From Gryllotalpicola protaetiae (GTDB taxonomy: Bacteria > Actinomycetota > Actinomycetes > Actinomycetales > Microbacteriaceae): a stretch of 64,000 nucleotides of DNA. This document shows positions 61,132 through 63,453 of the stretch, piece by piece; the first letter of the stretch is position 1, and each line of letters starts with the position of its first letter. Under the pieces are notes generated by a model. The model did not search any database. It had not been told where the DNA came from and saw only the letters and a program-made list of their open reading frames with translations. Made by a program: the position numbers and the translations under genes. The DNA is taken from the NCBI RefSeq assembly GCF_003627055.1, contig NZ_CP032624.1, forward strand, positions 3,224,001 to 3,288,000, in the 5' to 3' direction.

Positions 61132-61150
61132 CGAATATGTGTACTATTCG
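61132..61150. repeat. AT-rich inverted repeat between kinase and HNH genes
   Basis: CGAATA and TATTCG are separated by 7 nt in an unusually AT-rich patch that spans the kinase stop codon. It may be an operator for the HNH gene, but it does not fit the LexA consensus. Confidence 0.35.
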
Positions 61151-61698
61151 GTGATGCGGGTACCTGTGGGCGGAAAGACCCGCGCAACGATCGCCCTGGC
61201 GGCCGCATCCGGCGACAACCGGGTGGTGTCGACGACGACCTCGTCCTTGAAGCCCGCGCGGTCCAGGATTCCGGCGAGCTCGGGGTGACGCCGCAGATGC
61301 CACTCCAGCCCGGCATCCTCGCCATGCCTGGCCTGAAGCCGCGCCGCGGCGACCACAGGGTCGAGAGTCAGCAGCACGTGAAGCATCCGCCGTGCCGCAA
61401 GTGCGTCAGAGACGAGACCAAGCTCGGCAGCCGCTTCGATCACGCCAGCCGACACGATCACCCGCGCTCCGTGCTCGCGGAAATTCGCCGCGATCGCGCG
61501 GATGTTCGCTCGCGCCAGAGCTTCGTTGAACCGGTCGCCGGCCGGTGCGGGCCACGCACGGCGCAGCCAGTCGACGTCGATCACGGCACCGGGCACGCCG
61601 AGCCGCTCGAGCTCGGCCCCCACTGCCTCGGCCGTGGTGGTCTTGCCGGTGCCGACGCTGCCGTTGATCCAGACGGCATCGAATTCGAGTGGGCGCAC
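61144..61698 (-). CDS. Small P-loop kinase / AAA ATPase
   Basis: A 184-residue nucleotide kinase-like protein. Walker A is INGSVGTGKTTTAEAV near residue 11-26, an Asp in VIDVDWLRRAWP near 40 could act as base, and RLQARHGEDAGLEWHLRRHPEL near 125-146 resembles a lid with Arg and His residues. It is related in outline to shikimate, gluconate or adenylylsulfate kinases; substrate is not predictable. The GTG start lies just before the divergent ABC-F promoter. Confidence 0.75.
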   Translation of the reverse strand: MRPLEFDAVWINGSVGTGKTTTAEAVGAELERLGVPGAVIDVDWLRRAWPAPAGDRFNEALARANIRAIAANFREHGARVIVSAGVIEAAAELGLVSDALAARRMLHVLLTLDPVVAAARLQARHGEDAGLEWHLRRHPELAGILDRAGFKDEVVVDTTRLSPDAAARAIVARVFPPTGTRITE

Positions 61699-61700
61699 GA

Positions 61701-61706
61701 TAAGAT
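61701..61706 (+). promoter_or_regulatory. -10 box of the ABC-F attenuator transcript
   Basis: TAAGAT, predicted to start transcription near 61713. This gives a leader of about 172 nt before the ABC-F ATG. Confidence 0.45.
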
Positions 61707-61713
61707 GATGGCC

Positions 61714-61747
61714 TGTTCCCGCGGATCACCCGCAATGCCAGGGAACA
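61714..61747 (+). other. Leader hairpin 1 of the ABC-F attenuator
   Basis: TGTTCCC (61714-61720) and GGGAACA (61741-61747) pair perfectly at the predicted 5' end of the transcript, with an inner GCGG/CCGC. It ends 5 nt before the leader ORF Shine-Dalgarno. Confidence 0.5.
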
Positions 61748-61763
61748 CGCAGAAGGACAGGGA

Positions 61764-61799
61764 ATGACGGACAGCACCGGTTTCGCGACCACTCGCTGA
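61764..61799 (+). CDS. Leader peptide of the ABC-F attenuator
   Basis: An 11-codon ORF encoding MTDSTGFATTR. AAGGA (61753-61757) lies 6 nt upstream, one of the best ribosome-binding sites in the window. The last codon and stop (CGCTGA, 61794-61799) form part of the sequence that can pair with the terminator 5' arm. The placement fits a ribosome-sensing attenuator. Confidence 0.72.
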   Translation: MTDSTGFATTR

Positions 61800-61852
61800 C
61801 ACCGCCTGCCCAACACGCTTCGCAAAGCACCCGGGGCTCCGCCGTGTCGGCG
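61794..61852 (+). promoter_or_regulatory. Antiterminator pairing of the ABC-F leader
   Basis: CGCTGACAC (61794-61802) can pair with GTGTCGGCG (61844-61852) in 9 contiguous base pairs including one G-U. The second strand contains most of the inner 5' arm of the downstream terminator, so the two structures are mutually exclusive. Confidence 0.6.
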
Positions 61853-61882
61853 TATCACTTTCGACACGAACCGGAGCCTTTT
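61835..61882 (+). terminator. Attenuator terminator upstream of the ABC-F gene
   Basis: The outer 7-bp stem is GGCTCCG (61835-61841) with CGGAGCC (61872-61878). The inner 7-bp stem is CGTGTCG (61843-61849) with CGACACG (61862-61868). TTTT follows at 61879-61882, 2 nt before the ABC-F ATG. The 3' arm contains GGAG (61873-61876), the probable ABC-F Shine-Dalgarno, so the hairpin may also block translation. Confidence 0.78.
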
Positions 61883-61884
61883 CC

Positions 61885-63453
<1,569 letters not shown>

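Follow-up and report, generated by a model that had tools for sequence, protein, structure and literature searches.

A short upstream reading frame and competing hairpins before an ABC-F gene of Gryllotalpicola protaetiae: a probable ribosome-mediated attenuator

Features of the ABC-F locus

The locus was analyzed in a window of 64,000 nucleotides, i.e. the whole stretch of DNA considered, taken from contig NZ_CP032624.1 of Gryllotalpicola protaetiae; positions are those of the window. An ABC-F gene of 522 aa is present on the plus strand, from its ATG at 61885 to 63453. It was identified from its best match among NCBIfam models, the ribosomal-protection-like ABC-F model NF000355 (294.7 bits, under the cut-off of 380), and from its place in a tree of homologues. 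Sequence comparison with proteins of solved structure gives as relatives, among others, a lincosamide-streptogramin A resistance protein, PoxtA, Lsa(A) and EttA.

The leader of this gene, on the same strand, starts with a candidate -10 box recognized by eye (TAAGAT, 61701-61706), from which RNA synthesis would begin near 61713. A 5' hairpin (61715-61746) that forms in folds of the window is followed by a Shine-Dalgarno sequence (SD), AAGGA, at 61753-61757, located 6 nt 5' of an ATG, and by an upstream ORF (uORF) of 11 codons at 61764-61799, which encodes MTDSTGFATTR and stops on TGA (61797-61799). Further downstream, a two-part hairpin extends over 61833-61880, and TTTT, possibly a weak terminator tract, lies at 61879-61882 between the SD and the ATG of the ABC-F gene. 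A first, sequence-only reading of this DNA had reported the hairpin, the uORF SD, the 11-codon ORF and TTTT, and direct reading finds all of them at the same positions. It had also named a -10 box and a terminator: TAAGAT, the two-part hairpin and TTTT are indeed there, but consensus scans of 61400-62100 returned no sigma-70 promoter and no canonical intrinsic terminator (GC stem, then at least 5 T in 8), and therefore both labels rest on inspection by eye. On the other side of the leader, a divergent small P-loop kinase-like ORF (61144-61698, minus strand, matches below cut-off only) starts at 61698, so that a promoter of the leader would have its -35 region inside this ORF. The 5' hairpin (GTTCCC...GGGAAC) recurs with altered stem letters in the window's genus and in an Isoptericola-type group, the lower-stem letters being changed in L002-L004, L033, L203, L204, L206 and L225.

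Four segments of the leader can pair in competing ways. Segment 1 (61778-61788; CGGT and TCGCGA, within uORF codons 5-9) pairs in minimum-energy folds with segment 2 (61793-61804), which comprises the uORF end, the stop codon and the next bases. Positions 61794-61802 of segment 2, CGCTGACAC, can instead form 9 bp, one of them G-U, with GTGTCGGCG at 61844-61852, in segment 3 (61843-61852). Segment 3 pairs in turn, through 61843-61850, with segment 4, which is made of an inner arm (61861-61868) and an outer arm (61872-61880). An anti-SD arm at 61833-61841 contributes the outer part of this 3:4 hairpin; its limits, like those of segment 4, come from folds and helix pair counts. The ABC-F SD, GGAG at 61873-61876, sits in the outer arm of segment 4. 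The two pairings put forward in the sequence-only reading, i.e. the 9-bp helix between the stop-codon region and a downstream hairpin arm and the burial of the ABC-F SD in the 3' arm of the hairpin, are thus read directly in the window, and both recur among relatives.

Position of the gene among ABC-F homologues

The gene is present in 3 of the 4 genomes searched of the window's genus, the window's own included. At E<=1e-90, orthologues were found in 107 of 398 family genomes and in 96 of 396 order genomes, the two sets overlapping. In a FastTree phylogeny of 125 homologues with midpoint root, the window gene belongs to a group of 76 rows (support 91). All 45 leaders of the present type, a class to which five leaders were added by hand (92 in all), are in this group, as are the 7 of an EIDR type. 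Genes with GDDDISG-type leaders (11) or with three-codon leaders (17, from a hand-made list) fall elsewhere in the tree. The window clade adjoins, one branch away, genes with TiaA- and Are5sc-type leaders, in a tree that holds no named ARE5 reference. This position, taken with the leader peptides published for the ARE5 genes tiaA and are5sc, places the window ABC-F close to ARE5 as judged from sequence. Its own leader peptide is neither xGDDDISG nor MLV, the peptides of the tiaA/are5sc class.

Two further observations were made around these homologues. A second leader class with acidic uORFs (e.g. MEIEVDRA, MLIDEIDRA, MLTLEIDKA), a class of which we have seen no description, precedes ABC-F homologues at 16 loci identified by pattern (L011, L038, L040, L144, L156, L157, L166, L169, L193, L194, L196, L197, L211-L213 and L218); several of these uORFs end, by eye, on TAG and are immediately followed by a GCCACCG...CGGTGGC hairpin. 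At L039, a Microbacterium, a Cfr/RlmN-like radical-SAM methyltransferase gene (1358-2479) ends about 20 nt before an ABC-F match starting at 2501, which suggests a two-gene resistance operon. The tail of a Cfr/RlmN-like methyltransferase gene also precedes, by eye, the ABC-F gene of L150.

Recurrence of the leader layout

Upstream regions were taken from 240 loci, and 232 were kept after dropping two without start codon (L083 and L238) and 6 duplicates. The homologous leaders are the 172 loci with a protein identity of at least 46%. A uORF of 7-18 codons with Arg or His before TGA is present in 105 of them. At 78 of these 105 loci, downstream sequence can pair with the stop-codon region in a helix scoring at least 16; with the downstream part shuffled 100 times, 61 of the 105 reach p<=0.05. 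If the helix is required to lie at a set place with respect to the start of the gene, 75 of the 172 leaders combine uORF and stop pairing, as compared to none of 253 control windows. These controls are SD-ATG-ORF starts elsewhere in loci of at least 3 kb (mechanical ORFs of at least 100 aa, not curated genes), and 11 of them hold a uORF of such kind. The layout is not due to chance. Conservation in homologous ABC-F leaders had been proposed as a check of the sequence-only reading, and these counts confirm it for both the ORF and the stop pairing.

Before the helix analyses below, 18 of the 105 uORF loci were removed, 17 by hand as probable chance ORFs and L159 for an in-frame stop; nine of the 18 had a helix score of at least 16. 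Curation left 87 leaders with related uORFs, 78 of them unique. The 78 unique uORFs are 9-17 codons long; they start with GTG (38), ATG (23) or TTG (17), and their last codon is CGC (71) or CAC (7). Leader peptides differ from one locus to another, e.g. MTDSTGFATTR in the window, MTEIHGAATRR, MKFFDGFAPQSAR, MLSITGSAQPTR and MRISTGTASTTQTLPSH. When counted from the start of these uORFs of varying length, position 6 is Gly in 43 of 78 and position 8 is Ala in 51 of 78. The Gly codon is GGT in 34 of the 43 cases, suggesting a constraint on the RNA. The leader therefore contains a conserved uORF with its own SD, as in ribosome-mediated ABC-F attenuators, the SD of the window being recognized by eye. 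At six loci (L032, L035, L115, L119, L232 and L237) the uORF seems by eye to end earlier (e.g. MKGFDAAL, MEIIDATAQ), and a CGCGCTGA-like element is still found downstream, as if uncoupled from the stop codon.

Pairing and covariation of the three helices

Among the leaders listed, individual folds often show a helix between the middle of the uORF and the region formed by its end and the nucleotides that follow the stop. Several leaders pair TCGACG with CGTCGA in this way, a different group uses ATCAC and GTGAT, and L165 has TCTTCGAG opposite CTCGAAGA. RNAalifold, applied unprompted to 32 leaders, returned 2:3 as the only helix. In the 32 aligned leaders, the proportion of cells paired is 76.0% for 1:2 (25-41% for slid versions), 93.9% for 2:3 (18-46%) and 83.6% for 3:4 (32-45%), a comparison which favours the scored structures, since they derive from the L007 fold and the consensus; the choice of the best helix among candidate stops also favours 2:3 somewhat.

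Two-sided changes were observed at 6 pairs of 1:2, 2 pairs of 2:3 and 7 pairs of 3:4. Covariation is clearest in 3:4, with 21 cells and a score of 0.190 that none of 500 shuffles reaches; it is the only helix that beats every slid version (at most 0.098), and one of its pairs alternates between U-A (13) and C-G (9), with 9 unpaired. The score of 1:2 (0.103, 7 cells) is likewise reached by 0 of 500 shuffles, but it is not above the slid controls, slide -1 giving 7 pairs, 16 cells and 0.129. For 2:3 (4 cells), slide +1 yields 2 pairs and 6 cells at a lower score, and shuffles equal it in 43 of 500 cases on score, in 182 on pairs and in 140 on types; its variation is mostly from G-C to G-U. Over the 78 leaders, 1:2 has a mean z of -1.1 when compared with synonymous recodings of the uORF, and 2:3 and 3:4 each have -2.1 when compared with shuffles; p<=0.05 is obtained in 20/78, 43/78 and 43/78 leaders respectively. 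The least well supported of the three helices is 1:2. Covariation had been suggested as a check for both stems: it stands beyond slid controls in 3:4, and in 2:3 it is matched in part by slides and shuffles. What the computations show is the presence and recurrence of the sequence elements and that three helices can form; these helices are mutually exclusive and link the uORF to the SD/terminator region, with covariation beyond slid controls in 3:4 only.

Folding and ribosome position

Folding the leader was another check suggested from the sequence-only reading. Over bases 61701-61890 the energy is -69.8 kcal/mol (z -2.32), and 3 of 200 shuffles are as stable, the leader thus folding better than shuffled sequence. 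When the footprint of a ribosome is closed to pairing, the minimum-energy fold in the window has 2:3 for a ribosome at codon 3 or codon 5; it contains 3:4 for the free leader and for a ribosome at codon 1 or on the stop codon. The footprint was assumed to reach 15 nt past the P site. Segment 2 starts 24-52 nt after the uORF start in the 62 leaders whose helix is at least 7 bp long, and a ribosome on the start codon, with its assumed +15 footprint, would not reach it. With the same footprint, stalls up to codons 3-7 leave segment 2 free (up to codons 11-12 in five long-uORF leaders).

Two calculations were made on the effect of a stall, SD openness first and the cost of 2:3 afterwards; both are given here. 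In the 78 leaders, equilibrium SD openness is not consistently raised by a stall: its mean is 0.20 in free leaders, 0.22 at codon 1, 0.27 at codon 3 and 0.20 at the stop. At codon 1 it is higher than in the free leader by more than 0.1 in 16/78 cases and lower in 8/78; relative to the stop position it is higher in 21 and lower in 12. The median cost of 2:3 over the 62 leaders is 4.0 kcal/mol in the free RNA and 1.9, 1.0 and 0.85 kcal/mol with the ribosome at codons 1, 3 and 5, the footprint being cut where it reaches segment 2. A simple reversible translational switch is not supported by the energies by themselves. Since SD openness hardly changes, either the decision would be kinetic and taken during RNA synthesis, or the energies are too inaccurate. 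We also considered that codon 6 (CCGGTT) might pair directly with the SD region (AACCGG), and dropped the idea, as such a pairing is absent by eye from other leaders.

Proposed mechanism and alternatives

We propose, with a probability of about 0.7, that the leader is a ribosome-mediated attenuator of a resistance-type ABC-F gene, sensing stalls in the first few uORF codons. Four RNA segments would compete, 1:2 together with 3:4 being the OFF state and 2:3 the ON state. With no ribosome on the uORF, 1:2 and 3:4 would pair and the ABC-F SD would be buried. A ribosome reaching the stop codon would cover segment 2, so that 3:4 would form and the gene would again be OFF. The trigger is likely a ribosome stalled within the first few codons: arrested by a drug shortly after initiating on the uORF, it would cover segment 1 and leave segment 2 exposed, 2:3 would form while RNA polymerase proceeds, 3:4 would be blocked and the SD freed (ON), perhaps with passage past a weak terminator as well in the window's genus. 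This scheme assumes a kinetic, co-transcriptional decision, and we infer that the RNA is made and the uORF translated, as well as the order of co-transcriptional folding and the drugs involved. The inducing drugs are most likely lincosamides, streptogramin A and pleuromutilins, by analogy; these classes are put first because they are published to stall ribosomes at the start codon of the tiaA/are5sc uORFs (PMC12421871). Several results go against the scheme: equilibrium SD openness is not consistently raised by a stall, slid controls equal the covariation of 1:2 and in part that of 2:3, 1:2 reaches p<=0.05 in only 20/78 leaders, the promoter and terminator scans were negative, and in the window a ribosome exactly at codon 1, the stall site of the related uORFs, still favours 3:4.

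The sequence-only reading had the same switch logic, with the stop segment opposed to the hairpin arm and an early stall giving expression, but counted three segments. The leader folds add the fourth, i.e. the uORF middle pairing with the stop-codon segment. Without it an untranslated RNA would stay ON in that reading, whereas with segment 1 it folds OFF. As to the output, GGAG, GAGG, AGGA or GGGA is found 3-10 nt before the gene start in 73 of the 78 unique leaders, and an SD-like site is paired locally in 58 of 78. TTTT is present in 2 of 78, both from the window's genus, whose third member has TTCT. As SD motifs are widespread and TTTT is confined to the window's genus, SD burial would be the conserved output. 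The terminator of the sequence-only reading would thereby be restricted to that genus, where termination is possible, and its observation on SD burial extends to the relatives.

These data also bear on a transcription attenuator with three segments, in which 3:4 and TTTT would form an intrinsic terminator, a stall would cause read-through, SD burial would be secondary and 1:2 incidental. We regard it as unlikely, if not by far. It accounts for the tract that follows the hairpin immediately, TTTT in the window and one sister genome and TTCT in the other, and for the weakness of 1:2, and the equilibrium SD-openness result favours a decision during transcription. The lmrC gene of Streptomyces lincolnensis is described as using a premature terminator and as becoming constitutive on loss of the uORF2 start, which such a scheme predicts (PMC8546547). 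The scarcity of TTTT among the unique leaders, the negative terminator scan and the pairing of 1:2 in three quarters of the cells, well over its slid versions, argue against it.

Macrolide- or phenicol-sensing leaders use programmed nascent-peptide arrest, and the frequent G-x-A at codons 6-8 could be a signal of this kind. This is improbable: the preference for GGT points to the RNA, the bases concerned lie within segment 1, and a ribosome past codon 7 (+15) reaches segment 2 in 57 of 62 leaders, which would give OFF. Still less probable is a hairpin that simply hides the SD, or a switch responding to a small molecule or to temperature, the uORF playing no part in either case. It would suit the stability of 3:4 by itself and its covariation, the best of the three, but the uORF stop codon is itself the recurrent partner of segment 3, 87 curated leaders carry such a uORF, and no Rfam family matches. 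Chance pairing in GC-rich DNA, which readily forms hairpins and in which uORFs of this kind do occur among the controls, has practically no probability left, as the full rule separates leaders from controls completely (0/253).

Because the switching helix contains the stop codon and the energies are nearly balanced, the four-segment logic lends itself to direct testing. If it is true, expression of a group of resistance-type genes in actinobacteria would depend on induction and would not be constitutive; these genes could then be under-called by tests that include no earlier exposure to the drug.

Genome searches and other resistance genes

A covariance model was built from 32 leaders and used on 398 family genomes, the best eight candidates per genome being scored. 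It gave 47 matches at E<=2e-4, of which 29 are model seeds that match by construction. By coordinates, 44 of the 47 lie directly before an ABC-F orthologue, and one more (G114) does by inspection. The 18 non-seed matches are distributed as follows: 16 precede ABC-F genes and 2 precede other ribosome-resistance-type genes. The first of these two (G019, L271; E 8.8e-9) is located before a 671-aa protein of the tetracycline ribosomal-protection type, with tet_protect and Otr(A) as best models. The second (G142, L272; E 9.6e-8) is upstream of a Cfr-family methyltransferase gene, whose ATG is separated from the predicted start by a 69-aa ORF and 206 nt. Both proteins score below the cut-off of the corresponding tetracycline-protection or Cfr model. 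The two are single cases, homologues at E<=1e-60 being present in 1 of 150 genomes for Cfr and 2 of 150 for Tet; by eye, the leader is not seen at the second tetracycline-protection homologue (L285).

Among family matches weaker than 2e-4, nine were inspected (L274-L282) and none was recognized before a resistance-type gene; at least two more (G146, G254) precede ABC-F genes by coordinates. The search of the order yielded 8 matches under 1e-4, including two seeds, all before ABC-F genes (at about 200 nt for L287), and two of nine weak order matches (L293-L301) also precede ABC-F genes (L296, L299). At L288 (G065:C6), one of these 8, an ABC-F homologue with a leader of the present type has an in-frame TAG, and another ABC-F match in the same genome has no such stop; the interrupted gene is possibly a decaying copy.

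Tentatively, and at somewhat less than even odds, actinobacteria may have in this leader a portable sensor of early elongation stalls that no fewer than three unrelated ribosome-resistance families have taken up (ABC-F, Otr(A)-like tetracycline protection and Cfr-family 23S rRNA methyltransferase). What it senses would be set by the position at which the ribosome stops, not by the peptide. If this were confirmed beyond the single Tet-protection- and Cfr-type cases, one RNA logic would serve several resistance mechanisms.

Comparison with known systems

No Rfam family matches the leader at gathering score, and the search with E up to 10 gave one chance-level match only (E 2.6). We found no description of this leader class in searches of open-licence PMC papers, and the main text of a 2024 survey of noncoding RNA (PMC11109978) does not contain the term ABC-F. 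The sequence-only reading had not recognized the leader, which agrees with these searches, but related attenuation of actinobacterial ABC-F genes has been published (PMC12421871, PMC8546547).

One of the closest likenesses is with tiaA (MVGDDDISG) and are5sc (MLV), described as uORF attenuators of ARE5 ABC-F genes of Streptomyces coelicolor, the regulation of tiaA being apparent only in translational fusions (PMC12421871). The leader peptides are different, and in the window type the uORF is 9-17 codons long and has the 1:2 hairpin inside it. In tiaA and are5sc it is the uORF ribosome-binding sites that overlap the alternative pairing (PMC12421871), whereas in the window type it is the uORF stop codon. 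The antibiotic-inducible ABC-F gene lmrC of S. lincolnensis, for which a transcription terminator is reported, also has a uORF overlapping the OFF hairpin region; compared by description, its constitutive expression after uORF2 start loss differs from the four-segment model, which predicts OFF without translation (PMC8546547). In cplR of Clostridioides difficile, as described, a hairpin also buries the main SD with a U tract at the start codon, and translational and transcriptional attenuation act together; it differs by its three-codon uORF (MRI) and its ARE1 subfamily (PMC10201436).

The kind of system is therefore known, while the architecture and the leader class appear new. In erm and trp-type attenuators, four segments compete and the position of the ribosome decides between 2:3 and 3:4. 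In comparison, the signal in the window leader would be early stalling, and the stop codon of the uORF lies within segment 2.
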